Shown here: positions 4,532-40,269 of the stretch, piece after piece
Layout of the letters: each line of letters begins with the position of its first letter
Position numbering within the stretch: the first letter of the stretch is position 1
Assembly: GCF_000189635.1 (NCBI RefSeq)
Contig: NW_002476554.1
Coordinates: 649,493-713,492, forward strand
Source of the DNA: Tetrahymena thermophila SB210
Lineage: Eukaryota > Ciliophora > Oligohymenophorea > Hymenostomatida > Tetrahymenidae
Length of the DNA stretch: 64,000 nt
Direction of reading: 5' to 3'
Translations under genes and position numbers: made by a program
Notes under the pieces: model-generated
The model's input: the letters and a program-made list of their open reading frames with translations, nothing else
What the model was told of the DNA's origin: nothing
Database searches by the model: none

Positions 4532-4689
4532 TTATGGTTGTGTCTATTTCATATCGTTTAATCAAGTTTTAATCTTTCAATTCTATTTTGTAATTTAAAA
4601 TGTTTTAATTAATAATAAAAAATATCTATTTCACCCACAAATTTTCTGAATTTAAATATAAAAAAATTAATAATATTCAATAAAAATAA

Positions 4690-5400
4690 AGATAACAAAT
4701 TTTTTTCTTGAAAAAGATTTAACCTAAGATGCGCGTATTTATGAGAATAAATATATATTTTATATTAATTTTATATTATTAGAAATTAATTTACAAATTT
4801 TTATCTAAAACATTTAATAAAAATATTTATATCAAGATATAAAAGTGATAATTTTTGATAAAAAACAAACAATATTTTAAATAATCATTTTTTTTTCATG
4901 AATTAGACTTTATTGATGAAGATTATAATTATAGAGAGGTACATATTTATATTAATTTTTTGTTATTTACATTTATAAATTTTTAATTAAAGCATAATAA
5001 TATCAAGATATTAAAGTTATACTATTAGATAAATAAATAAACAAACGATATTTACATAACAAATTTTTTTTATAGATAGATTTAACTAATTATGAAGATA
5101 TTCTATTTATATTTAATTGAATTTTTTGTTATTTCAATTAAAAAATCTTTATTTAACCTTATTTATATCAATATTTTAGAATAAATAAATGAAAGTATTT
5201 GATTAAAACAAACGATATTTTAAATAAAAAATTTTTTTCATGAGAAAGATTCTGCCAATAAATAAAAAGTATATTTAATAGGGGAAATATTTATTTATAT
5301 AAAATTTTCATTTATTTGAAATATAAAGTTTCTTTATAAAGCACTAAGTAAAATAATTTTTTATTAAACGTATTCATTTTATTTATTTAAAAAATTATTT
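4690..5400. repeat. Degenerate tandem repeat, about 0.17-kb period, with exon-like cores
   Basis: Four diverged units start near 4690, 4870, 5040 and 5210. Each has a CAAACGATATTT-like stretch, then a T-rich tract ending in AAG or TAG, then a GATTTAAC/GACTTTATT-like core with GAAGAT, then a long AT-rich arm. The T-tract plus AG looks like a splice acceptor and the core like a 30-nt exon, but no start codon or consistent phase links them. The block fills most of the gap between the coiled-coil gene and the first paraoxonase gene. Confidence 0.55.
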
Positions 5401-11177: not shown

Positions 11178-11687
11178 ATTTTATTTTTCTATTTTTTATA
11201 TTTTAATGAATAAATAAATTTAGTATAAATTAGCTATAGCTATTTTTATAAACTAACTAGCAATATATGACTATTTACTTGTTTAATAGTTTAGAAACCA
11301 ATATAGAATTAATTACCATGGATACATGCATGTTTCCTGAAAAGAAAGAAATTTTTGATGTGGCCAAGAAATCTTATTTGCAAATATGAGAATTGAATTT
11401 TTTATTAGATTTTATAAATAAATTTAAAAATGTTACTCATGATTATGTGGAAGACTAGACAATACTTCTTGGGAAATTTAAAATTAGTAATTTTTTTTGA
11501 AATAAAATAAAGTCTAATAAATTTTGATTATTTCATTTAGAATAAATAGATTACATTATTAAATTTTTAACACATGATTGTAAATTTATTTTTTCTTTCT
11601 TATTTTAATTTTTTTTACTCACCAAAAATAGAAACTAATAATAATATCTGAAGAATTTACAATATTAACTGAGATATGATAGAGAGA

Positions 11688-19900: not shown

Positions 19901-22315
19901 TTATCAAAGCTCAATTTACTGATAAAGCTATGCTATCTTTTTACTTTCAACATAGAAGTATTCCATTTCATGAGATATATCTTGAGTTTTTAACTGAAGA
20001 GCTTCTTTAATCATAGGGATTACGAGGTTAATAGCATTTTCTAAAAATGTCTACTCGTTGTTAATATTTTTTAATAAGCTATTTTAAAGCTTATCTTAAT
20101 GGTTTATTGATGCTGGTTCTTAATTCGATTATTAAAGTAAATCATTCCCCTAATAAATAATTATAATAAAAAATAAATAAATCAATTAATCATAAAGGAA
20201 TTTGATTTGTTTTTTAATCTAAATATTAGTTACTGAAGTTATTTTTTATCTCTTTGAATCTTATTCTAAAGCTTCAGATTTTTTTCTTTCTAAAGTGATT
20301 GAATTCATCAACTCATTCAGTTCAAAAGACATATCTGCCATTTTATTCTGTAGCAAAGAAATTTCATTTTTTAATTGAATGTTTTATTGTGAAAGAGTTT
20401 GATTTTCTTTTAGTTGCTGTTCATATTATTTAGAGTTTAAATAAATATATATTAAATAGCTATAAATAAATTAATAAATATATTCTTACTTAGCCTAAAT
20501 TTTCTTCTAATTTTTTATATTCATTGAAGCTAACAGATTAATTATCACTAATGTCATCTCCAATTTCATTTATTATTGGTTTATTTTATATAATTTTAGC
20601 CCTAGTAGCAAATCTTAGTGTTGATAAAGTTTAATTAAAATTGCAAACTGCAGGAGAAACACAACAAATAATTGAAGTAAATGAATTACCACCCAAAGCC
20701 TAAGTTAATATTCTTGTTAGTTTAGAGTCTCTATAAGGGATATGTTGTTTTTTACCTTCTGCTAACTTATTTATGCAATTCGCTAAAATAAATAAACTTT
20801 TATTAATATAACCAGTTTCTCCTAAAGTATTTGGGTTAAAATCTATTTCAGATAATCTCTCTGATCCAGCTAGATCAACTAGATTCTAATTTATATAAAA
20901 AATTTATTAGTTTTTATTTAATTGCATTTGTTTTAATCTCTAAATTAAATTTATTTAATATTTAATTTTTAATCAATAACAGAACATCATTTAATCGTAT
21001 CTTATTGTTATATTTATTTAATAAAAAATAAAATTTTTTTTCAATCCTTAAAAATCAATGAAACAAAAATTCTTTTTTTTAATTTATTTAATATAGATCG
21101 ATCATTATTGGAAAATCTATTTAATTCTTTTATGACCATCAACCATACTTGTATTTATTTTTAACATATTAATAGATTGCTATCTTTTATTGAGGAATTA
21201 AGCTAAATGAAGTTTTACTGTAAATAATTTATTTATTTATTTATTTTTAACTTTTAATGAATTGATTTTATTGAAAAAATAAAAAATGTATTACCAAGCA
21301 TGAATACCTTGTCTTTTTGTATCCAGAGTTGAGGTCTTTACTAAAACTTTCCAAATACTATAAAATATGATGGAAAAAATTAATTTAGGTATGAATGAAT
21401 AAAAAGTTAATTAATTAACAATTAAAAAAATATTCTTTACTATTTTGAAGACTGTGTGAGACCTAGAAGAGTGCTCATGGATTGATGTCTCACGATATTT
21501 TCTATGCTCTTCGCCATAGTTCATCAAGACAATAGCCTATTCAAAATTCCAAACTCTTTGCATTTTAAGTCCTTGGACAATAGTCCCCCACTTTGAATCT
21601 TCAATAATTTTAAGGTTTTATTGTTAGGGAGCCAACAAATCATTAATATTTTCATTATAAATTTCCATATAACTAACCCAAACATTAAATTCCTCATTAG
21701 CTTATTTTTAAATTAAATTAAACATATCTCTTATACTACAAGGTAGAATACCAGGGTTTTCTGGTTAACCTAACATAGTAAACGTTTTTCCTGAAGTAGT
21801 TTATCCATAACATAATATAGATCCATGATAACCTTCTAAAACAGAATTGATGATATGTTTACCCATTTTATTATAAATAGTTTGAGTTCTGACTTCTGGT
21901 CCTTCCATGTTATCTAATTTTAACATCAATTATTATTAGTTACTACTGCCAATTATAATTATACTGAATATGATTAAATCCAAACAGATTTTATTTTAAA
22001 CCTCTTAACAAACAGTAAAAATGTAAATGTTTTACCAAATGTAAAAAATATTGAATTATTCCCTGCTTCGATTAAGCGCTTTCTATCTTTTAAAGACATG
22101 TTTTCAGTAATTTCATTATTTGTCACTAAAGAAGATTTCTGATCAATTAAAGAATAAATTTATTAAGTTTTTTTATTTATATCCCAGGCTTCTTCGTCCT
22201 CTTAAGGTCTTAGAAGAGGCCTTAGTCTTATGCAGACTTATATACATTCAGAAGCTCTGTTAGAATTTACAGAATTTGCTAAACTTTTTTAAGAACTACT
22301 TCTAATGGGTTTCAT
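16937..22315 (-). CDS. Kinesin motor protein fused to RCC1-like repeats (1294 aa, 13 exons)
   Basis: Exons, 5' to 3' on the minus strand: 22036-22315, 21441-21913, 21295-21357, 20490-20885, 20234-20416, 19920-20149, 18761-19715, 18419-18695, 18311-18366, 17691-18075, 17377-17634, 17071-17314 and 16937-17021; every junction keeps phase. The N-terminal motor (about 25-370) shows CIRLRPL, P-loop GQTTSGKT (130-137), switch I HEHSSRSH (239-246) and switch [12 protein letters not shown] (273-282). The switch I wording resembles kinesin-7, but subfamily is unsure. Residues about 400-860 are coiled coil. Residues about 885-1294 are RCC1/beta-propeller repeats: [84 protein letters not shown]. An N-terminal motor predicts plus-end-directed movement; the propeller may bind cargo or a GTPase. 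Confidence 0.92.
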
Positions 22316-23125
22316 TATTTTAGTGCTACTTTACTTACTATTTTTTTAATTGAAAATATTGCTTATTATTTGTTTGATAATTCTAAACAATTGCAAACTA
22401 TTTAATAAATTTGAATTTTTTATAATTTAAAAGAAATTTTGCAATTCTAAAATTAATCTGTTTTTTTTGTTTTTGAATCTATTAATGAATAACAAATATT
22501 TTATAGAACTTTTAAAAAATCTAGCTAGATTATATTGATGATAAATTAACTAACTAACTAGTTAATTAATTTAATAAAAATTAATAAATAATCATTTCAA
22601 TAATTTTATAAAAGAAAATAATATTATTTTATTAAAATTATCTTTTTAAAATAAATATGGTAAGAGAATTAATTATTCTCAAAATAAAATATATAAATAA
22701 ATATATAATTGTTTGTCAATTAGGATATATTTTTATTTCTTTTTAAATAATTAATAAATGAAAAATGGTGATATTAAAAAATTTATTAAATTACTTAGGT
22801 GTTTTATATTTCAACTTTAAAATTAATTATGAATATTTAACCTAGATTATCTTAATAATACATATTAATATATAGCAAATTATTAACAATAAAATTAATG
22901 TAATATAATATTATTTTATAAAAATCTAAAACATGATAATGTTTAAAATATTAAGCACTGATATAAATAAAAAATTAAATAAATGAATGACAGAATAATA
23001 TTTTAATATATTTCTAAAATGTAAAATAAAAATAAATAATTATTATTATTAAATAAATTATAAAATAACTAATATACTTCCGTTTTTATTTCAGCAATAT
23101 ATTACAAATAAGGAGTTAATTAAAT
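21937..23125. repeat. Segmental duplication, copy 1 (kinesin intron 1, exon 1 and promoter side)
   Basis: This stretch is repeated at 25848-27037 with high identity and the same order. It covers part of kinesin intron 1, the whole of exon 1 and about 0.8 kb upstream. The left breakpoint is inside intron 1. It is the beginning of a larger unit of about 3.9 kb (21937-25847) that also contains array gene 1. Confidence 0.9.
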
Positions 23126-23299
23126 ATGAATTTTTAAAAATCTTTTAAACAAAATATTTTTTATTAAAATTTATTTAAATTATTATAAACTACATACAAA
23201 ATACATAAATATATATAAAATACTATTATATAAATTTATTTAATATTATATTAATCTCTATTACAAAAAAAAAAAATCTGTAATTAGCAATATTCATAC

Positions 23300-23466
23300 T
23301 TTAAAAATTTTATATTTAGAAAGAAATCGCTTTTACAGATCATCTATTCCGCCTTACTATTATGCTTTTTTAAAGGTTTATAATTTCAAAATAGACCAAA
23401 TACATTCAATTAAATTTAAATCGGCACCCTTTGGTGGCCAATAAAGGCAATTGATTCCATTTCTCA
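23300..23466 (-). mobile_element. Relic of a Tc1/mariner-type DDE transposase
   Basis: On the minus strand the frame reads NGINCLYWPPKGADLNLIE, then CIWSILKLQTFKK, then GGIDDLQKRFLSKYK. This matches the hallmark near the last catalytic acid of Tc1/mariner transposases (WP..SPDLNPIENLWSILK). Only about 50 codons survive; the catalytic D,D part upstream and the terminal repeats are not visible, so it cannot be active. It sits in the part of the spacer present before array gene 1 but absent before gene 2. Confidence 0.75.
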
Positions 23467-23642
23467 CTTTCTGTTTTATTTAAATATCCACCCTTATTAG
23501 GAATTAGAATAAATAAGAACCAAGAAAATCTCTGATAAATATTCTAAATTCTTTTTAACATCTCTCTGTTTATTAAATTAAATATAAATTATTATCATTG
23601 AAGAAATTTTTATAAGCTTTACTTATTAATTAATTGAAAAAT

Positions 23643-23674
23643 AAAAGTATTTTAAAAGAAGAAAGGAAAAAAAG
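23643..23674 (+). promoter_or_regulatory. Conserved 32-bp upstream box, array gene 1
   Basis: An A/G-rich box (AAAAGTATTTTAAAAGAAGA followed by AAGG) about 40 nt before the start codon. The same box occurs at 27782-27813, 30854-30885, 33787-33818 and 36745-36776, each 34-40 nt before its ATG. Its conservation amid drifting spacer suggests a promoter or 5' leader element. Confidence 0.6.
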
Positions 23675-23713
23675 TTTATATACACTCTCATATTTAAGCT
23701 TATCTAATAAAAG

Positions 23714-25099
23714 ATGGATACTTTTAATAATTTAACGGGATAATCAAAGAATATTTATCATAAAAGAGAAGATGAGATGAAAATAGCGGAATCCATTTAT
23801 GTTCAATCATTCTTGAGAAATCAGTAGCAAGGTAGTAGTGATATTTTTTAAAAAGTGGAAGAAAAAGTTAAATCTATCAACCCACATTTGAAAGGGATAG
23901 TTAAGGAAGACTTAATGCTTTCAAGCTGCTGTACTCTAACTAAAAATGTTGTGAACTAAAAATCAGAAATAGTGAAAAAATTAGAATAAGAGTCTTAATA
24001 TTATATGGATTAGAAGATTTTAAATATATAATAAAAAAATTAGCCTTTAAATAAATTAAATTCTTAAGACTAAAAAGATATTTTGAAAGCTGCTTTATTC
24101 CAATACTTCAGATAGGAAGGTTGTTAAGTTTAAATTACTAGTAATATCAACAACGATTAAACATACGCCAATTCTTACTAGTCCCAGCTAGTATTAACTG
24201 GGTAAACAGATAAACTTAAGTATCTTTAAGTGGGTATTAATGATCAGTTTTATACTTACTAAAAGATTGTTTCAGACGATGTAACAAAAAAAGAAGTTAT
24301 TTCAAAATTCTTAAAGGCTACTTCAAATCAATATGGAGTTTCTAAAGACCGTATTACTATCTTAGACATATAATAAGGCTGTTAAAGTATGGTCAATTTT
24401 ATTTTTTCAATCAAAGGCTTAAAAACTGATCAAATATTTAAGACTGCAATAGACTAATACTAAATAGAGTTTCCAAAAGCTTAAATATCTGCTATGGCTA
24501 AGTCTCTAATTGATAACTATTAGATCAGTGATGAATACTTGGATGAGAGGTTTAATATGTATTGGGGCGATAGTTACAGTACATAAATAGACTACAGAGG
24601 ATCTCTTCCTAGATAAGGCTACGGCTCAGTACCTTAAAGATACTATTTCCCTGTAGGCTTTTAAGGTTATGGCATTAACGTATAGAAATGGCTTGCAGTA
24701 GATTAATCATGGTTTGGTCAAAGTAAAGATAAAAATGTATGGATTGTGCTTTATCATGCAACTAATGAAAACGGATTAAAAGGTATTTCTTCATCTTATA
24801 TTAAACCTGGATTAAATAATGCTTATGGAGGAACATAATGTAGGTTAACAAATAAAACAATTTTAAGTGGAGCTGGGGCTAATACTTACTTCTCAGATCG
24901 TGCAAGTGGACCTAATTCATCAGAAGGCTATGGAGGAAAAATATAATTGGGAAATAAAAATTATATTATAATGTTCTAATGCAGAGTTAATCCCATTCAT
25001 GTAAGAAGTCCTTATAATATGGAAAGTTACTACACTGTCGAATAAGAATATGCAAAATAAAGTGTGAGGCCATACAGAATACTCCTTAAAGAAGTTTGA
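23714..25099 (+). CDS. Array gene 1: protein with C-terminal ART/PARP-like domain (461 aa)
   Basis: One intronless frame from ATG (23714) to TGA (25097-25099), the shortest array member. The N-terminal 130 residues are Gln/Lys-rich with SINPHLKGIVKEDLMLSS. A middle domain (about 150-300) has YLQVGINDQFYTYQKIVSDD and TSNQYGVSKDRITILDIQ. The C-terminal domain has YRGSLPRQGYGS, YYFPVGFQGYG, SWFG, VWIVLYHATNENGLKGI (His348), TYFSDRASGPNSSEGYGG, QCRVNPIHVR and VEQEYAKQSVRPYRILLKEV. The order His-Thr, Tyr-Phe, then a late Glu/Gln before a Tyr-Arg-Ile-Leu strand resembles the H-Y-E layout of PARP/ART enzymes; that assignment is inference. No signal peptide or membrane segment is seen. Confidence 0.9.
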
Positions 25100-25847
25100 A
25101 ACATTAAAATATTCAAAAAGGATATACATAATAAAGTGACAGGACCTACCTATATAATCCTCAATGAAGAAGTTTTAATTTTTTAAAATTACCTACAATT
25201 TAGTTATTATATATAACTGTTTGAAGTATTTATTTAGATCATGAATGTTTTTTCTGGTTTAAAATATCAAATAGAAATATTTAGAATTTATTTTTTTATT
25301 TTTTTTATTTTTAATATAAACTTAAATTTTGTAGAAATAAATTTTAATTATTATTTAAAATTTGATTAAATAAAATCATATAAAACTAAAAAATTAATAA
25401 AATCTTAAAAAAAATAAATAAATTTGTTACATAGATAGATAAATAGTCTAAAAAGAATTTAGAACTAGTTTTTATTCCGCTTAGTGAAATTAGTCTTTCT
25501 ATTTGAACACACTTTTTGTTAAAATTACAAAATAGGATATACTAATTAGCTTTATGGATTATTTTATATTATTCTTCTGAATGCAAGTAAATTATTCATG
25601 GTAAATTGTTTTTTCTGTACTCCATTTTAAAAAATCATTTGTCAAATACATTTTCAAAATAAATTAAATAAAAAGATAAAAATTCTATTAAAAAAAAAAC
25701 AATTTTAAATAATTTTAAAAATAAATAATATTTTTTTATTTTTCTTTCTATAAATAAAATTCAAATACATTTCTTAATATAAAATTTAAAATAAAGTATA
25801 CTCTATTATAAATAGAGATAAACGAAAAAAAAAAAGGTGATCAACAA
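25100..25847. other. 3' flank of array gene 1 and end of duplicated unit 1
   Basis: AT-rich flank. From about 25180 to 25665 it matches the flank of array gene 2 (about 29980-30490), and part of it (near 25490-25570) also matches the flank of gene 5 near 38870-38940. The junction with unit 2 falls at about 25847, next to an A-run at 25825-25836. No gene is seen. Confidence 0.6.
25120..25178 (+). repeat. Decayed second copy of the C-terminal coding tail, after array gene 1
   Basis: This stretch after the stop aligns with the last 54 coding bases (25046-25099): GAATATGCAAAATAAAGTG in the gene versus GGATATACATAATAAAGTG here, then similar bases to GAAGTTTTAA. Equivalent tails follow the other four genes (29923-29980, 33174-33215, 36055-36103, 38557-38610). 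Confidence 0.75.
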
Positions 25848-26226
25848 TAGTTACTACTGCCAATTATAATTATTCTGAATATGATTAAATCCAAACAGAT
25901 TTTATTTTAAACCTCTTAACAAACAGTAAAAATGTAAATGTTTTACCAAATGGAAAAAATATTGAATTATTCCCTGCTTCGATTAAGCGCTTTCTATCTT
26001 TTAAAGACATGTTTTCAGTAATTTCATTATTTGTCACTAAAGAAGATTTCTGATCAATTAAAGAATAAATTTATTAAGTTTTTTTATTTATATCCCAGGC
26101 TTCTTCGTCCTCTTAATGTCTTAGAAGAGGCCTTAGTCTTATGAAAACTTATATACATTCAGAAACTCTGTTAGAATTTACAGAATTTGCTAAACTTTTT
26201 TAAGAACTACTTCTTACTGGTTTCAT
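25848..26226 (-). pseudogene. Truncated 5' copy of the kinesin-RCC1 gene
   Basis: On the minus strand this repeats kinesin exon 1 at the same length (280 nt, 25947-26226, ATG at 26224-26226) and its GT donor, plus about 100 nt of intron 1, then stops at the duplication junction. There is no frameshift. A few residue changes are visible, for example KPVRSS for KPIRSS, VFIRLRP for VCIRLRP and RHQEDEE for RPQEDEE. Motor exons 2-4 with the P-loop and both switches are absent, so no motor can be made. Reading into the retained intron fragment gives only a short peptide. Confidence 0.9.
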
Positions 26227-27037
26227 TACTTTAGTGCTACTTACTTACTATTCTTTTAATTGAAAATATTGCTTATTATTTGTTTGATAATTCTAACAAT
26301 TGCAAACTATTTAATAAATTTGAATTTTTTATAATTTAAAAGAAATTTTGCAATACTAAAATTAACATGTCTTTTTTGTTTTTGAATCTATTAATGAATA
26401 ACAAATATTTTATAGAACTTTTAAAAAATCTAGCTAGATTATATTGATGATAAATTAACTAACTAACTAGTTAATTAATTTAATAAAAATTAATAAATAA
26501 TCATTTCAATAATTTAATAAAAGTAAATAATATTATTTTATTAAAATTATCTTTTTAAAATAAATATGGTAAGAGAATTAATTATTCTCAAAATAAAATA
26601 TATAAATAAATATATAATTGTTTGTCAATTAGGATATATTTTTATTTCTTTTAATTAATAAATGAAAAATGGTGATATAATAAAATTTATTAAATTACTT
26701 AGGTGTTTTATATTTCAACTTTAAAATTAATTATGAATATTTAACCTCTTTTATCTTAATAATAAATATAAATATATAACAAATTATTAAATAAAGTTAA
26801 TTTAATATAATATTGTTTTATAAAAATCTGAAAAAAGATAATTTTTAAAATATTAAACACTGATATTAATAAAAAAATTAAATAAATGACAGAATAACAT
26901 TTTAATATATTTCTAAAATGTAAACTAAAAATAAAAATAAATAATTATTATTATTAAATAAATTATAAAATAACTAATATAATTCCGTTTTTATTTCAGC
27001 AATATATTACAAATAAGGAGTTAATCAAATATGAATT
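25848..27037. repeat. Segmental duplication, copy 2
   Basis: Copy of 21937-23125 in the same orientation, with scattered substitutions and small indels. It carries the truncated kinesin exon 1 and its promoter side. It begins duplicated unit 2, which continues through array gene 2 to about 30490. Confidence 0.9.
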
Positions 27038-27851
27038 TTTAATATAGCAATAAATAAACCTAATTATTTTAAATATTTGGAAATAACTACATATTTATTA
27101 AAACAATACTTTTAAATCTTTAAATTTATGACTGTAATTAAAATTGTTTAACTGAAATTAATTTGAATATCTAAATTTAGATAATGACTGAATTAGGGAA
27201 ATAATCTCTTTAGTTAAAAACTATGAATTTTAAAAAATATACAAATTAATTTTTTTTCCAAAAAGTATCTTTCATTAAAAAATGGATTATTTTTTTAAAA
27301 ACTGTAAAGTTTGCTAATAATAAAAGCTTCTAAATGGTTAATCTATAAATATAAAATTTTCCTTTTTTTTGAGGAAAATATTGTTTAATAATTTATTATG
27401 ATGTTAGTTAATATAGCTAGTCAAAGGCCATCACAAAGATTTTTAATCCTTCATTATAGACTTATTCTAGTAATGTCTAATAGTAGGATTATGGGAGAAT
27501 TACTCGGGTATTAATTCGATAACTAACTACTCGGTTTCTGGTTATTAAAATATATTAAATATATGGTATTTATTAAAATCTTTATCCTTTAATTTTAGAA
27601 ATTGATTGATTTAAATTTTATATAGGTACCCTTTTTAGGAATTAGAATAAATAAGAACCGAGAAAATCTCTCTTAAATATTCTAAATGCTTTTTAACATC
27701 TCTCAGTTTATTAACTCAAATATAAATTATTAGCAATTAAGAAATTTTGATAAACTTTATTTATTAATTAATTGAAATAAAAAAAGTATTTTAAAAGAAG
27801 AAAGGAAAAAAAGTTAAAAAAACACGCATATTTAAGCTTATCTAAGCAAAG
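27038..27851. other. Upstream spacer of array gene 2
   Basis: 27038-27626 has no counterpart in unit 1 and no gene I can recognise. 27627-27851 matches 23490-23713 and contains the conserved 32-bp box at 27782-27813, so it is the duplicated proximal promoter. Confidence 0.55.
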
Positions 27852-29903
27852 ATGGAGGAAAAAGTAAAATCAGGTATTTCACATATTAGTAAATAATAAA
27901 CAGAATAAAAAGAAAAAAAGAATACTTTTAATAATTTCACAGCATAACCAAATAAAAAAGAAGAATATGGTATTTCTTGTCATATTAAAGATGGTAGTAA
28001 ATAAAATAATCTTTTGAATTATTTAACTAATATAAAAAAAGAAGAATCAGACATTTCAAATCATACTAATTAAAAAACAAAATAAAGAGAATAAAATACT
28101 TTTAATAATTTAAGTTCATATCCATAGAAAAGTTATGATAAAAAAGAAGAATAAGGTATTTCTTGTCATATTAAAGATGGTAGTAAATAAAATAATCTTT
28201 TGAATTAATTAACTAATATAAAAAAAGAAGAATCAGACATTTCAAATCATACTAATTAAAAAACAAAATAAAGAGAATAAAATACTTTTAATAATTTAAG
28301 TTCATATCCATAGAAAAGTTATGATAAAAAAGAAGGATAGGGTATTTCATGTCCTATTAAAGATGGTAGTAAATAAAATACCGAATAAAATTAGTAAAAG
28401 AATCATTTTCATGAATAATTACCTAAAAATTAAGATCAAAAAGAAGTATCAGGTATTCCAAATCATAGTAAATATGGAGGTAAATAAAATACAGAATAAA
28501 AAGGATAAAAGAATACTTTTAATAATTCAATGGGATAACCATAGAAAACTTATCATAAAAATGAAGATGAGATGGAAATAGCGGAATCCATTTACAAACA
28601 GCAATTCTTGAAAAATAAGTAGCAAGATAGTAGTGTTCTTTTGTAAAAAGTAGAAGAAAAAGTTAAATCTATCAACCCACATTTGAAAGGGATAGTTAAG
28701 TAAGACTTAATGCTTTCAAGCAACTATACTCTAACTAAAAATGTTGTGAACTAAAAATCAGAAATAGTGAATAAATTAGAATAAGAGTCTTAATAATATA
28801 TGAAGGATGCAAATTAGAAGATTTTAAATATATAATAGAAAAAATTGCCTTTAAATAAACTAAATCCTTAAGACTAAAAAGATATTTTGAAAGCTGCTTT
28901 ATTCAAATACTTCAGACGGGAAGGTTGTTAAGTTTAAATTACTAGTCATTTAAAAAATGATTAAACATGCGCCAATTCTTACTAGTCCCAGCTAGTATTA
29001 ACTGGGTAAACAAATAAACTTAAATATCTTTAAGTGGGTATTAATGATAAGTCTTATACTTACTAAAAGATTGTTTCAGACGATGTAACAAAAAAAGAAG
29101 TTATTTCAAAATTCTTAAAGGCTACTTCAAATCAATATGGAGTTTCTAAAGACCGTATTACTATCTTAGACATATAATAAGGCTGTTAAAGTATGGTTAA
29201 TTTTATCTTTTCAATCGAAGGCTTAAAAACTGATTAAATACTTAAGACTGCAATAGACTAATACTAAATAGAATTTCCAAGTGCTTACATATCTGCTACG
29301 GCTAAGTCTTTAATTGATAACTATTAGATCAGTGATGAATACTTTGATGAGGAGTATAATATGTATTGGGGCGATAGTTACAGTACATAAATAGACTACA
29401 GAGGATCTCTTCCTAGATAAGGCTAAGGCTCAGTACCTTAAAGATACTATTTCCCTGTAGGCTTTTAAGGTTATGGCATTAACGTAAAGAAATGGCTTGA
29501 AGAAGATTAATCATGGTTTGGCCAAGATTCTGATAAAAATGTATGGATTGTGCTTTATCACGCAACTAATGAAAATGGATTAAAAGGTATTTCTTCATCT
29601 TACATTAAACCTGGACAAAATAATGCTTATGGAGGAGCATAATGTAGGTTAACAAATAAAACAATTTTAAGTGGAGCTGGGGCTAATAGTTACTTCTCAG
29701 ATCGTGCAAGTGGACCTAATTCATCAGAAGACTATGGAGAATAAATATAATTGGGAAATAAAAATTATATTATAATGTTCTAATGCAGAGTTAATCCCAT
29801 TCATGTAAGAAGTCCTTATAATATGGAAAGTTACTACACTGTAGAATAAGAATATGCAAAATAAAGTGTGAGGCCATACAGAATACTCCTTAAAGAAGTT
29901 TGA
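27852..29903 (+). CDS. Array gene 2: ART/PARP-like domain with an expanded N-terminal 62-residue repeat (683 aa)
   Basis: Intronless frame from ATG (27852) to TGA (29901-29903). From about residue 235 it is nearly the same as array gene 1, including SINPHLKGIVKQDLMLSS, YYFPVGFQGYG, VWIVLYHATNENGLKGI, SYFSDRASGPNSSEDYG and SVRPYRILLKEV. The extra N-terminus is built of a 186-bp (62-codon) tandem repeat with phase points at 27969, 28155 and 28341 (GISCHIKDGSKQNN, ISNHTNQKTKQREQNTFNN, SSYPQKSYDKKEE), plus a shorter degenerate unit near 28452. The repeat is Lys/Gln/Asn-rich and probably disordered. Its seed, an NTFNN..QP..YHK motif, is present once in array gene 1, so it grew by internal duplication after the gene duplicated. 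Confidence 0.9.
27969..28480 (+). repeat. Intragenic 186-bp tandem repeat in array gene 2
   Basis: Two almost identical 186-bp units (27969-28154 and 28155-28340), a third partial unit from 28341 and a degenerate fourth from about 28452. The period is a multiple of three, so copy-number change keeps the frame. Confidence 0.9.
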
Positions 29904-30920
29904 ATCATTTAAATATTCAAAAGGATATACATAATAAAGTGTCAGGACCTACCTATATAATCCTAAATGAAGAAGTTTTAATTTTATTAAAATTACCTAT
30001 TATTTAGTTATTACATATAACTGTTTGAAGTATTTATTTAGATCACAAAATATTTTTTTCTCGTTTAAAATAGCAAATAGAAATATTTAGGATTTATTTT
30101 TTTATTTTTATTTTTAATTTTAACTTAAATTTTGTATAAATTAATTTTAATTATTGTTTAAAATTTGATTAAATAAAATCATTTAAAACTAAAAAATTAA
30201 TAAAATCTTTTTTAAAATAAATAAATTTGTTACACATATAGATAGATATTCTATAAAGAATTTAGATCTAGTTTTTATTAGACTTAATGAAATTAGTCTT
30301 TCTATTTGAACACACTTTTATTTGTACAAAATAGGATATACTAATTAGCTTTAAGGACTATTTTATAATATAATAGGAAAAGCGAGGTCTATAACAAAGC
30401 TTTTTTACATATTATTCTTTTGAATGGAAGTAAATCTTTCTTGATTTGTTTTTTCTTTAATCCATTTTAAAAAATCATTTGTCAAATACATTTTAAATAT
30501 ATTTTTTTAAATCAGCAAATACATCCTATCTTATATTTTATAAAAATAATTTTAATTTAAATATTCTAAAAAATCGTTTAACTAATTTAATTTTGGTATC
30601 TATTTATTCATGAGTGCTTGAGTTTTAAATATTCGGAATCATACAATAAATATTTTATATTTTTTTTTTAAGAATAAAATATATAAAAAAAAGATTTATT
30701 TTTCTCAATAATTAGAAATAAGAATTATTAAAGTAGCATCATAATTAAAGCATAATCATTGATAATAATTATTCTAATTTTTTTTCAATATCTTTCAATT
30801 TATTAACTCAAATATAGAAGTTTGTTATGATAAATTTTATTAATTGTAAAATTAAAAGTATTTTAAAAGAAGAAAGGAGATAAAGTAAAGATACGCAAAT
30901 ATAAACTATTCTGAGAAAAT
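29904..30920. other. Spacer between array genes 2 and 3
   Basis: About 1 kb. The left half to about 30490 matches the flank of array gene 1. The right end (about 30780-30920) matches the leader of genes 4 and 5 and contains the 32-bp box at 30854-30885. A decayed C-terminal tail copy lies at 29923-29980. No gene is seen. Confidence 0.55.
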
Positions 30921-33104
30921 ATGGACTCTCTCAATAATCGTTAAAATAACAGCAGAAGCTATTAAAGAAACTAAAGAAATAATAGAAACGCTTACGGTAT
31001 AAAACCATTTAATAGATAAAATAACAATAGAAATATGAATAGATCTAATAACCTTCGTTTAGAAAATAAAAGTATGATCTAGCCATAACTTAAAGAAGAT
31101 ACATCATACGCAAAAATAATAGGACCATGCTGCTTTTATGAAATAAATAAAAACACCTTTTTCTCAGTTTTGATGAAGCGTGTTGCTTAAAAATTTCTTT
31201 CTGTAGACTAGAAGACAAATAAATTAATAAATGAGATTATGATTAGGGCTTAGGGTAAAGAAGAACTAAAAAAGCTGAGAAAGATATTATTCTTATTGTC
31301 TGATAGATTGAAAGGTGTGTCTACAATATTTAATAAATGCTTCACTCGTATGATGTTTTCAGAAGACAGAAATAAAGCTCCAGATTACAAGCTAAAGAGA
31401 TGTGTAGAAGTAATTTTCATAAAGAATCCAACAGATACTCAAAAAAATATGAAAGGATTTAGGAATCCTAAACATGAAGGGTAGATCATCGATTATGAAG
31501 AATATAAGAAGACTTATAATTATAAAAAGGAATTAGACAAGGAAATTGAAGAGAAATAAGAAGACGAGCTGTAAATTGCGGAAGCCATTTTTGTCAAGTC
31601 GTTCTTGTAAAATTAGTAGCAAGATAATACAAATGATGTCTAAAACATTGAAGAACAAAAGTAGGATTTGTAAAAATAAAATTAATTTTAAAATGAGGAA
31701 GAAGAAGAAGATTAGGATGAAGAAGAAGAAAAAGATGAAAGCAGTGACGAAGAAGAAGAAGATGATAACGATGAAGATGATTTTATGGTAGAAGAAATTG
31801 AAGAGACTAAAAATTATTAGAATATACCAGAAAAGGTTCTTTTTGAAAAAGTAGAATAAAAAGTTTAATCTATCAACCCACATCTGAAAGACATAGTTAA
31901 AGAAGACTTGAGGTTTTCATGCAGCTATACTCTAACTAAAAATGTTGTGAACTAAAAACCAGAGGTAGTGTAATAATTAGAATAAGAGTCTGATTAATTT
32001 ATGAAGAATGTAGCTTAGAAGATTTCAAATATATAAAAGACAAACTAGCCATTATATGAATTAGATTCTTCAGACTAAAAAGATATTGTGAAAGCTGCTT
32101 TATTTCAACACTTCAGACAGCAAGGTTGTAAAGTTTAAATTACTAATAAAATTAATTAAGATGAAACATACGCCAATTCTTATTAGTCCTAGCTAGTTTT
32201 GACTGGGTAAACAGATTAACTTAAGTATATTTAAGTGGATATAGATGATAAGTAATATAATTACTCAAAGATAATTTCAGAGCCTGCAACAAAAAATGAA
32301 GTTATTTCAAGATTCGTAAAGGCAACTTCAAATCAATATGGAGTTTCTAAAGATCGTATCACTATTATAGACATAAAAAAGGGACTAAAAAATATCATTA
32401 ATTTTATTACTTCAATTGAAGGCTTAGAAATTGATCATCAATTTAAGACTGCAACAGATTAATACTAAAAAGAGTTTCCAAAAGCTTAAATATCTTCTGT
32501 GGTTAAGTCTCTTATTGATAACTATTAGATTAGTGATCAATACTTTGATGAGAGGTATAATATGTATTGGGACTCTGATCACGATGAATTAGTCACTTAC
32601 AGAGGATCTCTTCCTAGATAAGGCCAAGGCTTAGTACGTTAAAGATACTATTTCCCTGTAGGCTTTTAAGGTTATGGCCTTAATGTATAGAAATGGCTTA
32701 AAGAAGACTAATCATGGTTTGGTCAAAATTCTGATAAAAAAGTATGGATTGTACTTTATCATGCAACTGATGAAAAAGGATTTAAAGGTATCTCTGAATC
32801 CTATATTATGCCTGGATATCGTAATGCATATGGAGGAACAAAATGTAGGTTAACAAATAAAACAATTTTAGGTGGAGATGGGGCTAATAGTTACTTCTCA
32901 GATCGTGCAAGTGGACCTAATTCATCAGAAGGCTATGGAGGAAAAATATGTTTGGGAAATAAAAAGTATATTCTATTATTCTAATGCAGAGTTAACCCCA
33001 ATCATGTGAGAAGTCCTGTTGATAGGGAAACGTACTACACTGTAGAAAAAGAATATGCATAATAAAGTGTGAGACCATACAGAATTCTCCTTAAAGAAGC
33101 TTGA
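30921..33104 (+). CDS. Array gene 3: ART/PARP-like domain with a distinct N-terminal domain and acidic tract (727 aa)
   Basis: Intronless frame from ATG (30921) to TGA (33102-33104). After an Asn/Arg/Gln-rich start, residues about 55-205 form a domain absent from genes 1 and 2: DTSYAKIIGPCCFYEINKN, LFLLSDRLKGVSTIFNKCF, KRCVEVIFIKNP. I do not recognise it. A linker with a Glu/Asp-rich block (EEEEDDNDEDDF) leads into the shared part: SINPHLKDIVKEDLRFS, YYFPVGFQGYG, VWIVLYHATDEKGFKGI, SYFSDRASGPNSSEGYGG, VEKEYAQQSVRPYRILLKEA. It is closest to gene 4. The acidic block and the lack of a signal sequence point to a cytoplasmic or nuclear protein. Confidence 0.9.
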
Positions 33105-33853
33105 TAATAAGATAGTTCACTTATTGTAAGCAGAAAAGTAATAAAAAAATATTTATATAAAACTATCCAAACAGAATATACATAATAAAGTGTAAGGGCC
33201 TATATAAAATTGAAATACATTATTTTGTTAAAGATATTTTTTTTTGGTTTAAAATAGTAAATTAAAATATTTAATTTTTAATATATATTAGCTTAATTTT
33301 GTATAAGTTAATTTTAAAAATAAAATCATTTAAAACTAACAAATTAATATTTTTGAGTGAAAAAATTCACAAAATCTCAGATCTTTTTTTTTGCAAATTA
33401 ACTGGTATTCTACAGTAAATTAGTTTTATGTAAATTTTAGAAATTTTTGTAAAACTCAAAATCTTCTAAATAATCTATCCAACAGATAGATATTAGTATT
33501 ATTTTTGTATGGTGCTAATTCAATTATCGTATCTATTAATAAATAAATACTCGAGTTTCAAATATTCGTAATTGTACAATATTATATATCTTTTAGATAA
33601 TAATAATAAATATCAAATAAAAGATATTTTTTCTCAATATTTGAATACAAAAATTATTAAATTGGCATCAAAGATAAAGCTTAATCAAAGATAATAATTA
33701 TTCTAATTGCATTTCAATATCTTTCAATTTATTAACTCAAATATATTAGTTTTTATAAATTATATTAATTAACTAATTGTAAAATTAAAAGTATTTTAAA
33801 AGAAAAAAGGAGATAAAGGTAATATATATACATATAAACTAATCTGAGAAAAG
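33105..33853. other. Spacer between array genes 3 and 4
   Basis: About 0.75 kb, AT-rich. The right end repeats the leader found before genes 3 and 5, with the conserved box at 33787-33818. A decayed tail copy lies at 33174-33215. No gene is seen. Confidence 0.55.
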
Positions 33854-36034
33854 ATGGACTTTTTCAACTTTGGTTAAAAAGACAACAGCACCAATAAGAT
33901 AAACTATTTAGGAAATAGCGGCTTGGGCTAGGGTAAAAAGCCATATAGTAAAAAAAAAAAATAAAATAACTATCCTAAAAAGTAGAGACCAAATAAACCT
34001 CATTAAGAAATTCAATCTATGATCTAGCCATAAATTAAATAAGATACATCATATGCAAAAATAATAGGCCCATGCTGCTTTTATGAAATAAATAAAAACA
34101 CCTTTTTCTCAGTTTTGATGAAGCGTGTTGCTTAAAAATTTCTTTCTGTAGACTAGAAGACAAATAAATTAATAAATGAGATTATGATTAGGGCTTAGGG
34201 TAAAGAAGAACTAAAAAAGCTGAGAAAGATATTATTTTTATTGTCTGATAGATTGAAAGGTGTGTCTACAATATTTAATAAATGCTTCACTCGTATGATG
34301 TTTTCAGAAGACAGAAATAAAGCTCCAGATAATCAGCTAAAGAGATGTGTAGAAGTAATTTTCATAAGGAATCCAACAGATATTCAAAAAAATATGAAAG
34401 GATTTAGGAATCCTAAACATGAAGGGTAGATCATCGATTATGAATAATATAAGAAGACTTATAATCATAAAAAGGAATTAGACAAGGAAATTGAAGAGAA
34501 ATAAGAAGATGAGTTGCAAATTGCTGAGGCCATTTTCGTCAAGTCGTTCTTGAGAAATCAGTAGCAAGATAATAATACCAATTATATCTAAAACATAGAA
34601 GAACAAAAGTAGGATTTCCAAAATTAAAATTAATTTTAAAATGAGGATAAAGAAGAAGAAAAAGATGCAAGCAGTGACGAAGAAGAAGAAGATGATAACG
34701 ATGAAGATGATTTTATGGCAGAAGAAATTGAAGAGACTAAAGACTATTAAAATTTACCAGAAAAAGTTCTTTTGTAAAAAATAGAATAAAAAGTTTAATC
34801 CATCAACCCACATCTAAAAAACATAGTTAAAGAAGACTTGAGGTTTTCATGCAATTATACTCTGACTTAAAATGTTGTGAACTAAAAACCAGAAGTAGTG
34901 CAATAATTAGAATAAGAGTCTGATTAATTTATGAAGAATGTAGCTTAGAAGATTTCAAATATATAAAAGACAAACTAGCCATTAAATAAATTAAATTCTT
35001 CAGACTAAAAAGATATTGTGAAAGCTGCTTTATTTCAACACTTCAGATAGCAAGGTTGTAAAGTTTAAATTACTAATAAAATTAATAAAGATGAAACATA
35101 CGCCAATTCTTATTAATCATAGCTAGTTTTGACTGGGTAAATAGATTAACTTAAATATATTTAAGTGGGTATTGATGATAAGTAATATACTTACTAAAAG
35201 ATTGTTTCAGAACCTGCAACAAAAAATGAAGTTATTTCAAGATTCGTAAAGGCAACTTCAAATCAATATGGAGTTTCTAAAGACCGTATCACTATCTTAG
35301 ACATATAAAAAGGTTTTAAAAGTATTGTTAATTTTATTACTGCAATCGAAGGTTTAGAAATTGATCATCAATTTAAGACTGCAACAGATTAATATTAAAA
35401 AGAGTTTCCTAAAGCTTAAATTTCTTCTGTGGTTAAGTCTCTTATTGATAACTATTAGATTAGTGATCAATACTTTGATGAGAGGTTTAATATGTATTGG
35501 GATCCTTACCACAGTACTATGGTCGATTACAGAGGATCTCTTCCTAGATAAGGTTAAGGCTTAGTAGCTTAAAGATACTATTTCCCTGTAGGATTTTAAG
35601 GTTATGGCCTTAACGTATAGAAATGGCTTAAAGAAGACTAATCATGGTTTGGTCAAAATTCTAATAAAAACGTATGGATTGTACTTTATCATGCAACTGA
35701 TGAAAATGGATTTAAAGGAATTTCTAAATCTTATATTAAGCCTGGATAAAATAATTATTATGGGGGAACAAAATGTAGGTTAACAAATAAAACGATTTTA
35801 GATGGAGCTGGAGCTAATAGTTACTTCTCAGATCGTGCAAGCGGACCTAATTCATCAGAAGGCTATGGAGGAAAAATATATTTGGGAAATAAAAAGTATA
35901 TTCTATTATTCTAATGCAGAGTTAATCCCATTCATGTAAGGAGTCCTGTTGATATGGAAAGCTACTACACAGTCGAAAAAGAATATGCATAATAAAGTGT
36001 AAGACCATACAGAATTCTCCTTAAAGAGGCTTGA
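33854..36034 (+). CDS. Array gene 4: close paralogue of array gene 3 (726 aa)
   Basis: Intronless frame from ATG (33854) to TGA (36032-36034). The first 50 residues (MDFFNFGQKDNSTNK, then a Lys/Gln-rich stretch) differ from gene 3, but from DTSYAKIIGPCCFYEINKN on the two are nearly the same. The unknown N-terminal domain, acidic block, middle domain (TSNQYGVSKDRITILDIQ) and C-terminal domain (VWIVLYHATDENGFKGI, SYFSDRASGPNSSEGYGG, SVRPYRILLKEA) are all kept. The predicted His, Tyr and late Glu/Gln positions of an ART-like site are unchanged. The abrupt switch from divergent to near-identical sequence inside the N-terminus suggests recombination or gene conversion with gene 3. Confidence 0.9.
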
Positions 36035-36810
36035 AATATTTAAATACACAAACAGAATATAAATAATATAACGTATTGGCCTCTATAATTCTCAGTATAG
36101 AACTTTTAAATTTATTAAAATTATTACTTAATATTTAGTTATTACTTATAACTATTGGAAATACTTATTTAGTTCATTATGTTTTTTTGGTTAGAATTAA
36201 TTTTTATTCAGTTAAAAGTGAAAATTAGTCTTTCTACTTGACTGAACACACTATTTTTTTTTTTTTTCAAAATTGAGGATATATAGTAGCCCTCCATCAA
36301 AAAAAAATGGTGGAGGACCTCCATATAAATAAATAATTGAAAGTTAAGGGGAGTGAGTATTGAAATTTAATTTTATAAATTATTTATGTGTAAATTATAT
36401 AAAATTCTTAAAAAACTCAAAATCTATATATCCAACACTTAGATATTGATATTATTTTAGTAAGGTTTTTTGTATGATGCTAATTGAATTATGCTATTAA
36501 TTTTTCATAAATATTCTAGCTTCAAATATTGAGAATAGCACAATATTTTTAAAAGTTTTTTAGATAAGAATAAAACAAAAGATTTTTTTTCTCAAAAATT
36601 TTGCACAAAAATTATTAAATTGGTATCAAAGTTAAAGCTTAATCAAAGATAATCAATATTATTATTTCTTTTACTCAACTTTTAATAATTAGTGTAGAAG
36701 AAGATTAGATAAACTTTATTTATTAATCAATTGATTGTAAAATTAAAAGTATTTTAAAAGTATAAAGGAGATAAATTTAAAAAACGCATAAAAAACTAAT
36801 CTGAGAATAG
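36035..36810. other. Spacer between array genes 4 and 5, with a small inverted repeat
   Basis: About 0.78 kb. It has a T-run at about 36253-36268 and a hairpin-like inverted repeat at 36291-36316 (CCTCCA, A-rich loop, TGGAGG), followed by another CCTCCAT at 36318. The right end carries the array leader with the box at 36745-36776. A decayed tail copy lies at 36055-36103. Confidence 0.55.
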
Positions 36811-38523
36811 ATGGACTCTTTAGACTTAAATAAGAATTTAAACAGCATCTAAAGTAGTGACCTGAGTGAAAATAAAAGAATGGGTCAGGGTAGAGAGCCA
36901 TTAAATAAGAGCACCTTCTCAGTTTCGATGAACAAAATTGCTTAAAAACTGAGAAATATATTCTCCTTATGTTTTGATAGATTTAAAGATAAGAAAATTG
37001 ACAAAAAATAAGAAGATGAGCTGTAAATTGTGGAAGCCATTTTCGCCTAGTAGTTCTTGAAAAATCAGTAGCAAGATAATAATATCAATAGTGGCTAAAA
37101 CATGGAATAACAAAAGTAGGATTTCAAAAATGAAAATTAATTATAAAATAAGAAAAAAGATGAAGAAATGCACGCAAGCAGTGACAAAGAAGAAGAAGAT
37201 TTTTAAAACAAAGAAATTGAAGAGACTAAAAACTATTAAAATTTACCAGAAAATGTTCTTTTGTAAAAAGTAGAAGAAAAAATTTAATCCATCAACCCAC
37301 ATCTGAAAGACATAGAAAAGGAGGACTTGATGTTTTCATGCAGCTATATTCTAACTAAAAATGTTGTGAACTAAAAACCAGAAGTAGTGCAATAATTAGA
37401 ATAAGAGTCTGATTAATTTATGACGAATGTAACTTAGAAGATTTCAAATATATAATAGAAAAACTAAACATTAAATTAATTAGATTCTTCAGACTAAAAA
37501 GATATTGTGAAAGCTTCTTTATTCTAACACTACAGACAAAAAGGTTGTAAAGTTTAAATTACTAATAAAAGTAACAATGATTAAACACATACCAATTCTT
37601 ATTAGTCCCAGCTAGTTTTGACTGGTTAAACAGATAAACTTAAGTATATTTAAGTGGGTATTGATGATAAGTAATATACTTACTAAAAGATTGTTTCATA
37701 ACCTGCAACAAAAAAAGAGGTTATTTTAAAATTTGTAAGGGCAACTTCAAATCAATATGGAGTTTGTGAAAAAAATGTCACTGTCTTAGACATATAAAGA
37801 GGCTTTAAAAATTCTGTTAATTTTATTACTTCAGTCGAAGGTTTAGAAATTGATCAACAATTTAAGAATGAAATAGATAAATACTAAACTGAGTTTCCAA
37901 AAGCTTAAATATCTTCTATGGTTAAGTCTCTTATTGATAACTATTAGATTAGTGATCAATACTTTGATGAGAGATTTAATATGACTTGGAGTCCTTATCA
38001 CAGTAATATGGTCGATTACAGAGGATCTCTTCCTAGAAAAGGCTAAGGCTTAGTACCTTAAAGATACTATTTCCCTGTAGGTTTTTAAGGCTATGGTCTT
38101 AATGTATAGAAATGGCTTAAAGAAGATTAATCATGGTTTGGCAAAGATTCTGATAAAAATGTATGGATTGTTCTTTATCATGCTACTGATGAAAAAGGAT
38201 TTAAAGGTATTGCTTAAAGCTATATTATGCCTGGACATCGTAATTTATATGGAGGATCTATATGTAGGTTAACAAATTAGATAATTTAAAAAGGAGCTGG
38301 GGCTAATAGTTACTTCTCAGATCGTGCAAGTGGACCTAATTCATCATAAGGCTTTGGAGGAAATATAAATTTGGGAAATAAATAATATATTCTAATATTC
38401 TAATGTAGAGTTAATCCCATTCATGTAAGAAGTCCTATTTATAAGTAAAGCTACTACACAATCGAAAAAGAATATGCATAATAAAGTGTAAGACCATACA
38501 GAATTCTCCTTAAAGAAGCTTGA
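36811..38523 (+). CDS. Array gene 5: internally deleted, diverged ART/PARP-like paralogue (570 aa)
   Basis: Intronless frame from ATG (36811) to TGA (38521-38523). Compared with genes 3 and 4 it lacks most of the unknown N-terminal domain: a short remnant (STFSVSMNKIAQKLRNIFSL) joins directly to KQEDELQIVEAIF. The acidic block is reduced and mixed with Lys. The middle and C-terminal domains are complete: YYFPVGFQGYGLNV, VWIVLYHATDEKGFKGI, SYFSDRASGPNSSQGFGG, SVRPYRILLKEA. Substitutions are more frequent than between genes 3 and 4 (for example NLYGGSICRL, NKQYILIFQCRV). The frame is still open over its length, so it is probably expressed. Confidence 0.88.
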
Positions 38524-39624
38524 AATATTTAAATTAATAATTAAAATATCCAAAAAGAATATGTATAATAAAGTGTAAGGTTCAATATTATCCTCAATAA
38601 AAAGTTTTAATTTGTAAAAATTCTTTAACATTTAATCATTATTTGTGATTCTTTGAAATACTTTATTTAGTTTATGAATTTATTTTATGGTTTAAAATAG
38701 CAAATTAATTTTTAATATTAACTTAATTGTGTTGCTTAAATTAATCATAAATATTATTTTAAATTCTAATAAATTAAATCATTTAAAACAAACAAATTTA
38801 TAAAATCATTTAAAAATAAACAAAAAAATAAATAAATTAGTTTGATAGTCTAAAAAGAATTTAGTATTTCTATTTGAATAAGCTTATTGTTCAAATTACA
38901 AAATAAGATATATTAATTAGCTTTATGGAATATTTTATAAATAGATTAATTAGATTTAGAAATATTTGCGTATTTTATTTGTAGAATTTATTTTAAATTT
39001 AATGATATTGATTTTTTTCTCAAAGCAAGGTGTACTTTTGAAAGTAGGATTAAGATCAAATCGTAATTGCAAAATAAAAAGATGTATTGTAATAAATAAA
39101 ATATTGAATTTAAAAAAATAGGCAGATTGTTAGCAAGTAGAAAGGTGACTGGTCTATCAATCAATTGATGAATTAAAGATTAGTAAAAATTAAGTAATTG
39201 AGAAGCATCGAGTAATATCAAGATTTAAATGAAAATTTAGAGTGTAATAAAATGAGATAACCAAGCAAATTTTAATATTAGAAAAATCTTTGTATTTTTA
39301 TTAAGAAGATTGATAGATAGTCAATAAATCATTAATCGAAAAGGAAACCTTAAAGTAATCGTAAAATTTAAAAAAGATAGAGTTTTAAAAATTAAAAATA
39401 GTAGTAAATACTAATAATAACAGAAAACAAAACAAAAAAACAATGTTTGCTTGTTAATTTATTTATTTATACATTTAACTAATTTAAGTGGTAAAAAGCA
39501 GAGATTTTAACATTAATTTATTATATAAGTAAGAGAGAAAGGATTTTGTAAATCTTTGCAGTAATAGAATTTTTTTAGTATATTTCGTTTTTACTTTTTG
39601 CTATCAACTAATGAACAGAAAGCA
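38524..39624. other. Right flank of the array and a possible small open frame
   Basis: The first 0.4 kb is the decayed array flank (tail copy at 38557-38610; match to flanks of genes 1 and 2 near 38870-38940). 39168-39614 on the plus strand is open for 148 codons from an ATG, Lys/Gln/Asn-rich and without recognisable motifs. With one stop codon and AT-rich DNA this can occur by chance, so I do not call it a gene. Confidence 0.4.
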
Positions 39625-40269
39625 TCACTCAGGGGTGAACCCTAAGCTTTATTCTAACTTTTTTTCATCGCATGAAACTTGACAGTAATGCCAGATAACC
39701 TCACCATTACTTAGATTTGCGAATTTTTTGTAGAGCTTAAATACTTCATTTTCAACTATCCTAGGTTCATGGAAGTAGCCTTTTGCTATTAGTGTGCTTC
39801 CGATAGCGAAGGCAAATGAGAAATGAATAGCGTTCTTATTAATATATCCCCTATTTATAAGCGAGTTGTAAAGCATTTCGAGTGCTCTTCCTCCTAAATA
39901 CATTCTCCATGTGTACCAGTTCTTTTTGTTTTCGAACATCATTCCAATGAAGGCTCCAAGAAAGCCTGAAACAAATGAATTAAATCCATCCTCTTTTTGT
40001 CTGATCCTTCTAAGCAGACATTATGCTAGCTTCATTAGCGAGTTCATTAAAGTTATGAAAAGTGGGAGACGGAAATCGCCATCACACAACAGTATTTTGT
40101 ACAAAGTTTTAGGTAACTGTTGCAAGCTTTTTTTGAGACTGAAAAGCGTAAAAAGGGTATTAAGTGAAACTCTCAAGCCATACCCGATTAAAAAGGAGCG
40201 CTTGACCTCCTTCAAAAAACTTTCAAAACAGCTTCCTTCATGCTTACAAAATTAAGTCTTTGATTTCAT
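39625..40269 (-). CDS. TMEM135-like membrane protein (214 aa)
   Basis: Intronless frame from ATG (40267-40269) to TGA (39625-39627). It starts MKSKTQFCKHEGSCFESFLK and then VKRSFLIGYGLRVSLNTLF, a Cys/His motif followed by a hydrophobic stretch. This matches the second half of TMEM135 (CKH..C...C..GF.R.F.VGY), and RLPLFITLMNSLMKLAQCL, EDGFNSFVSGFLGAFIGMMF and YLGGRALEMLYNSLINRGYI follow in the same order as in that family. TMEM135 proteins act in mitochondria, peroxisomes or lipid droplets; their repeats resemble Tim17-type membrane domains. Here only one half of the usual roughly 450-residue protein is present. I found no other half next to it, so this is a half-length family member rather than an obvious truncation. 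Confidence 0.85.

Follow-up and report, generated by a model that had tools for sequence, protein, structure and literature searches.

The catalytic domain of the PARPs (PF00644) carries a triad of His, Tyr and Glu (H-Y-E), and in PARP1 it stands beside helical and WGR domains. RNA 2'-phosphotransferases of the KptA/Tpt1 type are relatives of the ADP-ribosyltransferases (ARTs), with two Arg residues after the HGT motif in the active site. PARPs without the Glu are described, in the passages of Citarelli et al. (2010, PMC2964712) that deal with them, as mono-transferases or non-enzymatic; animal PARPs of this H-Y-[non-E] type can, according to these passages, still be mono-transferases. The same passages report four canonical Tetrahymena PARPs of 'Clade 3D', one of which keeps the Glu, with an H/NNSK motif after the triad.

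Here, we analyse a tandem array of five genes, g1 to g5, in Tetrahymena thermophila. The array lies in a 64 kb stretch of DNA (the window, C22:649493-713492) of a genome of 101 Mb in 445 contigs; positions without a contig name refer to the window. Sequence profiles support an ART/PARP-like C-terminal domain in the family to which the array genes belong, mainly through paralogues outside the array. As in the PARP catalytic domain, the family has a His in an HG[ST]-type motif and a Tyr in [VI]Y[FL]x[DA] with a strand after it, and three paralogues have a Glu before the last strand at the PARP spacing. In contrast to the PARPs, its members score below the Pfam cut-off, share a YRG...YxFPxGxxGxxLxV lead-in and an FQCRVNP signature, and carry a mid region in place of the helical and WGR domains of PARP1, while in the array genes the Glu site is occupied by Ser or Thr, and HAT stands in place of HGS. 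The 'Clade 3D' PARPs, as far as the passages on them go, resemble the family in their changed third triad residues and in lacking known domains beyond the C-terminal one, but their H/NNSK motif is absent from the family by eye. The PF00644 loci with HNSK in the Tetrahymena genome (L034, L035) are separate from it.

Similarity to ADP-ribosyltransferases

A genome search with g5 found 17 places. Of two divergent queries, one returned those 17 together with a partial match at C328, and the other 16 of the 17. These searches place at least 18 loci of this ciliate family in the genome, so that the array, which forms one of its branches, is not unique. By comparison, the canonical PARPs occupy about 11 loci (grouped from 16 PF00644 matches), none of which overlaps with the family. 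At the Pfam cut-offs the family is unassigned, and a literature search, which was not exhaustive and did not extend to supplements, showed no paper on it.

Three ART models of Pfam overlap at the His motif of the family. PARP (PF00644) matches nine of the 17 C-termini at E ≤ 1 (L019 4.4e-5, L018 1.7e-4, L017 3.9e-4, L021 0.0015, L024 0.0028, L025 0.0037, L022 0.0045, L016 0.0064, L020 0.062), ART-PolyVal (PF18760) matches two of 17, and Tox-ART-HYD1 (PF15633) matches two of 17, both of them array genes (E 0.093 and 0.10). A search of the PDB with hmmsearch gave four matches at E ≤ 10, namely RNA or tRNA 2'-phosphotransferases at E 0.0016, 0.049 and 0.98 and ribosomal protein S2 at 0.95; the best of these sits on the HGT motif. 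The family was also compared by hhalign with an alignment of four canonical PARPs from the same genome. Here, the family scored 44.3 (Prob 86.8, E 4.3e-6), with His placed on His and Tyr on Tyr, against 11.9 for the reversed profile, 10.6 for a profile of the mid region and 19.2 for the best of 30 column shuffles. This similarity comes largely from outside the array. The ten members other than the array and the C174 pair reach Prob 87.8 (E 3.3e-6) and the array together with that pair 46.8 (E 2e-4), and array genes are clearly homologous to members of the ten-member set.

Several results weigh against an ART/PARP-like domain. In hhalign the five array genes, taken by themselves, show hardly any match to the canonical PARPs (Prob 1.6, E 0.031); the last strand was not aligned with the Glu. 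Searching Pfam with the five array proteins gave nothing relevant at E ≤ 10, and none of them is among the PF00644 matches, all of which lie under the cut-off (the best, L019, has 23.5 bits with a gathering cut-off of 26.7 bits). A phmmer search of the PDB with g5 found no match. In hmmsearch with the family profile, the best non-array open reading frame (ORF) of 1064 was a canonical PARP at E 0.067, its main alignment falling off the motif, and at E ≤ 1 the PARP ORFs were interspersed with ORFs matched by chance. The reverse search with a canonical PARP profile returned three of the 17 members at E ≤ 100 (best 0.022). Unrelated Pfam models also appear at similar values: Ig_NUP210_4th matches the whole L020 protein at 5e-4, and five others match one member each at E 0.024-0.23. 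Since E-values of this size can arise by chance, the number of members matched and the shared place of the matches decide. AlphaFold produced no usable model, with a predicted local distance difference test (pLDDT) of 30.4 on the five rows from the window and 29.9 on the g2 domain as a single sequence. Among eukaryotes the comparison covered the Tetrahymena genome itself; one pattern scan with the family profile of prokaryote contigs (47 stretches) and one of viral contigs (11) confirmed no relative. A preliminary description of the array had proposed an ART/PARP-like domain from the letters of the window. The profiles, mainly those of the paralogues, support this, while structure prediction did not confirm the fold. 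Taking both sides together, we consider an ART fold very probable.

Active site

The His and the Tyr are present without exception in the 17 members, and hhalign aligns both with the canonical PARP residues. The HGT motif reads HAT in each of the five array genes. In the canonical PARPs L026 and L027 the Glu precedes the last-strand Tyr by 13 residues, and in an alignment with the PARP chain 1efy the L026 Glu falls on its counterpart. Two canonical PARPs of the HNSK type keep this spacing with Gln or Met at the Glu place, and the paralogues L022, L024 and L025 have a Glu at the same distance (E+13=Y). We placed the Glu site by motif spacing (E-Y-x-x...YxxL of canonical PARPs) rather than by profile alignment. 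The catalytic Glu of PF00644 occurs in only three of the 17 members; the others have Ser (7), Asp (2), His (2), Thr (1), Arg (1) or Asn (1). In the array the inferred site holds Ser in g1, g2, g4 and g5 and Thr in g3. Three extra residues separate this site from the last-strand Tyr in the array, and its placing there therefore depends on the subsequent YY.

The preliminary description had compared a motif order ending in a late Glu-Gln with the H-Y-E site. It picked the His and Tyr correctly, but the late Glu is probably the wrong residue, since by the canonical spacing from Glu to YxxL the Glu place is taken by Ser or Thr in each of the five genes. This late Glu lies five residues past the inferred site and is found in every member of the array's branch (12/12) and in none of the five others. 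It is probably not the Glu of the triad, because five residues along a strand should lie well off the site. Its conservation could instead mark a reorganised active site in the largest branch. After the three-residue insertion the array reads S-[EQ]-[GD]-[YF] where 1efy has S-A-N-Y, the Ser and Tyr of which presumably hold the nicotinamide.

The array and its history

The window reads in code 6 (TAA and TAG as Gln), with G+C of 17-29% across 2 kb steps; under translation table 11 no ORF of 120 aa reaches into 22000-40000. The five same-strand paralogues of the preliminary description are real, with frames that are open and collinear in code 6 (Table 1), and every motif quoted for them is present in our alignment. 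A comparison with g2 supports the g1 start at 23714: the sequences preceding the two genes align (23490-23718 vs 27628-27856, 89.6%), and their ATGs share the same offset. Frame length alone is modest evidence for coding in this code, because in 20 of 20 order-1 shuffles of the 64 kb the longest TGA-free run measured 390-560 codons. The TGA-free frames holding g1 to g5 span 702, 765, 729, 728 and 572 codons, g5 being only narrowly above chance. That the genes code is shown by their G+C (0.26-0.30 vs 0.17-0.20 in intergenic DNA), by homologues at other genomic loci (best E 8.8e-74) and by the ratio of nonsynonymous to synonymous divergence (dN/dS) in the constant region of 407-410 codons. Here, dN/dS was 0.26-0.79 in all ten pairs, and bootstraps gave dN ≥ dS in 0/500 replicates for five pairs and in 21-65/500 for the other five.

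The preliminary description had seen one constant C-terminal domain behind N-termini that were swapped, expanded or deleted. A constant part does exist, and at about 410 codons from INPHLK onward it is longer than the C-terminal domain; a short motif, EDExxIxExIxxxxFLxN, also precedes it in all five genes. A ubiquitin-interacting motif was considered by eye for the EDExxIxE stretch and dropped because the spacing does not fit. Expansion and deletion were both found. As judged from the alignments, the N-termini differ mainly through repeats, deletion and gene conversion, and what looks like a true swap separates only g1/g2 from g3/g4/g5. g2 corresponds to g1 with inserted repeats of about 60 residues. 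The leader block of g3 and g4 was found only in these two genes (genome search at E ≤ 1, two matches), and g5 holds deleted remnants of it in the alignment. Recent gene conversion of the block is suggested because its dS of 0.045 (dN 0.021) falls far under that of the g3/g4 constant region (0.197).

A 1.2 kb unit upstream of g1 recurs between g1 and g2. Within it lies the 5' end of a kinesin-like gene in divergent arrangement, which continues on the left and is truncated in the copy, and ordinary unequal crossing-over would account for this duplication. In a tree of 17 C-terminal domains, g1 and g2 group at 99/100 and the five array genes at 98/99; the C174 pair appears as their neighbour at 82/83, which is not a firm value. 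The array may thus be a recent local expansion of one family branch by unequal crossing-over and gene conversion.

As for the kinesin-like motor gene itself (18500-22315, - strand), RCC1-like repeats lie downstream of it, both named by eye, and the two may form a single kinesin-RCC1 protein. The truncated duplicate of its 5' end occupies 25654-26226 (-).

Other members of the family

Beyond the array, the family includes three tandem pairs, on C174, C78 and C115. Protein-kinase exons lie just upstream of the C174 pair on the same strand (two Pfam Pkinase matches, of which one at E 1e-11 exceeds the cut-off and one at 2.9e-7 narrowly misses it), and kinase and PARP-like parts may share one transcript. 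A further family locus lies on C174 (164 kb). C172 and the C78 pair encode three proteins judged by eye to be coiled coils. MORN repeats occur in C162 and C112 below the Pfam cut-off (E 0.0013 and 0.0061). C13 and one C115 gene begin with MGCC, which we take to be an acylation-type N-terminus. The N-terminus of C129 is rich in Cys and RBR-like by eye; Pfam gave no RBR match for it.

In L060 (C174:611001-619500) the kinase exons lie at about 1885-5162, directly upstream of the PARP-like frame. The VAIK-type Lys of the N-lobe there seems to be Arg (IALRI), and the kinase may be unusual.

The 18th member is the C328 locus (L064, C328:311001-317000, minus strand, about 2162-2896), in which the lead-in and the RPYRIL end are preserved. 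By eye, it reads YLPAT in place of the HGT-type motif, which is ruined, and appears to be a decayed or repurposed copy.

The mid region was aligned in 15 of the 17 members, without L024 and L025, and showed no consistent Pfam or PDB match among these. TRADD-N (PF20694) matched one of 15 (E 0.0059) among 32 scattered families and was rejected as chance; on the whole L020 protein, TRADD-like_N gave E 0.008. FAZ1_cons matched three of 15 (best E 0.0035) as part of the scattered weak matches, and a FAZ1-type domain was likewise rejected.

Proposed function and alternatives

We propose that the C-terminal domain of the family is a divergent PARP-like member of the ART superfamily. NAD+ would be bound by the ART fold through the half that carries the His and Tyr motifs. 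Since the third residue of the triad would be Ser or Thr, transfer of single ADP-ribose units would be the most likely activity, and otherwise the domain would only bind NAD+ or ADP-ribose; either is favoured because PARPs without Glu have been described as mono-transferases or non-enzymatic. The variable N-termini may serve targeting, each steering its protein to a particular site or interaction partner; in the paralogues this role would fall to kinase, MORN, MGCC and Cys-rich N-termini. As a whole, an expanded PARP-like branch with mono-transfer or NAD+/ADP-ribose binding and N-terminal targeting is our best explanation, to which we assign a probability of roughly 0.55. Given an ART fold, transfer of ADP-ribose and its absence appear about evenly balanced.

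The strongest competitor is that the proteins are pseudoenzymes, in which the ART fold has lost transfer and serves as a scaffold binding NAD+, ADP-ribose or protein. Replacement of the Glu in 14 of the 17 members and HAT for HGT throughout the array would fit this, and C328 indicates that the HGT-type motif can decay in the family. Against it, His and Tyr are invariant, the array keeps S-x-x-Y/F after the Tyr where 1efy has S-A-N-Y, and the passages of PMC2964712 on animal PARPs allow mono-transfer without the Glu. Loss of transfer is a genuine possibility, though a less probable one. Far less credible is an unrelated fold in which the H-T and Y-F motifs arose by chance. The array without a significant Pfam match, g5 without a PDB match, the low pLDDT values and the weak matches to unrelated Pfam models are what such a fold would leave, but three ART-type models and an RNA 2'-phosphotransferase match would then have to meet on one motif by coincidence, and the profile score would have to exceed the control maximum (44.3 vs 19.2).

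The preliminary description had speculated that a fast-evolving array such as this one, in which an effector-like domain stays constant and the N-termini vary, belongs to a conflict or recognition system. The tandem arrangement and N-termini that vary by repeats and deletions recall such systems, and over the first 51 codons of g3 and g4 dN exceeds dS (0.465 vs 0.281), in low-complexity sequence of uncertain alignment. Yet none of the constant-region pairs has dN/dS above 1, the g3/g4 leader has been homogenised instead of diversified, the N-terminal variation consists of low-complexity repeats and indels, and Pfam shows no recognition- or immune-type domain in the five proteins. We regard the idea as unsupported and improbable. 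Least likely of all is an NAD-dependent RNA 2'-phosphotransferase of the KptA/Tpt1 type or another RNA-modifying ART. Such enzymes share the HGT motif and its context with the family and supply the top two of the four PDB matches, but these two are confined to 37-38 residues around the HGT motif. Positions +4 and +5 counted from the His hold Arg in the matched chains (HGTVRRN) but in none of the 17 members, and among Pfam models PARP matches more often.

On a wider and more tentative view, the PARP-like family could constitute a second, unannotated ADP-ribosylation network beside the canonical PARPs, with at least 18 loci fused to differing targeting modules (kinase, MORN, MGCC, RBR-like fingers, coiled coils), the Glu site lost in the largest branch and the array as a young part of that branch. 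If so, surveys based on PF00644 overlook a whole PARP-like group in this ciliate, and the fusions with kinase and RBR-like parts would tie ADP-ribosylation to phosphorylation and ubiquitin signalling within one polypeptide. In the available part of a table of ADP-ribose eraser homologues (PMC4245714), T. thermophila is entered as '+7' in the first column, the heading of which lies outside that part; the entry may indicate that ADP-ribosylation is heavily used. With Ser or Thr as the third triad residue, the five array genes would also lend themselves, as natural variants, to probing the effect of this change.

Features of the array region and neighbouring genes

Table 1. Array genes, their domains and the surrounding duplication, in window positions.
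Feature	Position	Strand	Remarks
g1	23714..25099	+	Open frame (code 6), 461 aa; shortest N-terminus; start backed by g2 upstream alignment
g2	27852..29903	+	Open frame, 683 aa; N-terminal tandem repeat of ~60 aa
g3	30921..33104	+	Open frame, 727 aa
g4	33854..36034	+	Open frame, 726 aa
g5	36811..38523	+	Open frame, 570 aa; leader block mostly deleted
g1 C-terminal PARP-like domain	24536..25093	+	186 aa; His codon 24755-24757, Tyr codon 24887-24889, Ser at inferred Glu site 25025-25027; PARP similarity via family profile
g2 C-terminal PARP-like domain	29340..29897	+	Tox-ART-HYD1 at E 0.10
g3 C-terminal PARP-like domain	32541..33098	+	Thr at inferred Glu site; Tox-ART-HYD1 at E 0.093
g4 C-terminal PARP-like domain	35471..36028	+	Ser at inferred Glu site
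g5 C-terminal PARP-like domain	37960..38517	+	Ser at inferred Glu site
g1 conserved mid region	24062..24535	+	Aligned in 15/17 family members
g2 conserved mid region	28866..29339	+	As for g1
g3 conserved mid region	32067..32540	+	As for g1
g4 conserved mid region	34997..35470	+	As for g1
g5 conserved mid region	37486..37959	+	As for g1
g2 N-terminal tandem repeats	27859..28380	+	27859-28194 vs 28036-28380, 89%
g3 leader block	31074..31553	+	160 codons; common to g4 (34019-34498); remnants in g5
Duplication unit upstream of g1	21937..23137		5' end of kinesin-like gene (named by eye) and divergent intergenic DNA; 95% identical to 25848-27042
Copy of duplication unit between g1 and g2	25848..27042		Bears truncated kinesin-like 5' fragment

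Elsewhere in the window, a 564-aa protein (7658-9349, -) has a central ubiquitin domain (Pfam E 2e-25, residues 286-356) and, by eye, Cys-rich, RING-like stretches towards its C-terminus. A duplicated pair of genes with 81% identical DNA (5436-6623 and 9981-11327, both -) looks paraoxonase-like by eye; Pfam gave nothing for it at E ≤ 0.01. Two large adjoining proteins (54721-56907 and 58008-60065, both -) show carboxypeptidase-regulatory-like matches, and the first also a transthyretin-like one.

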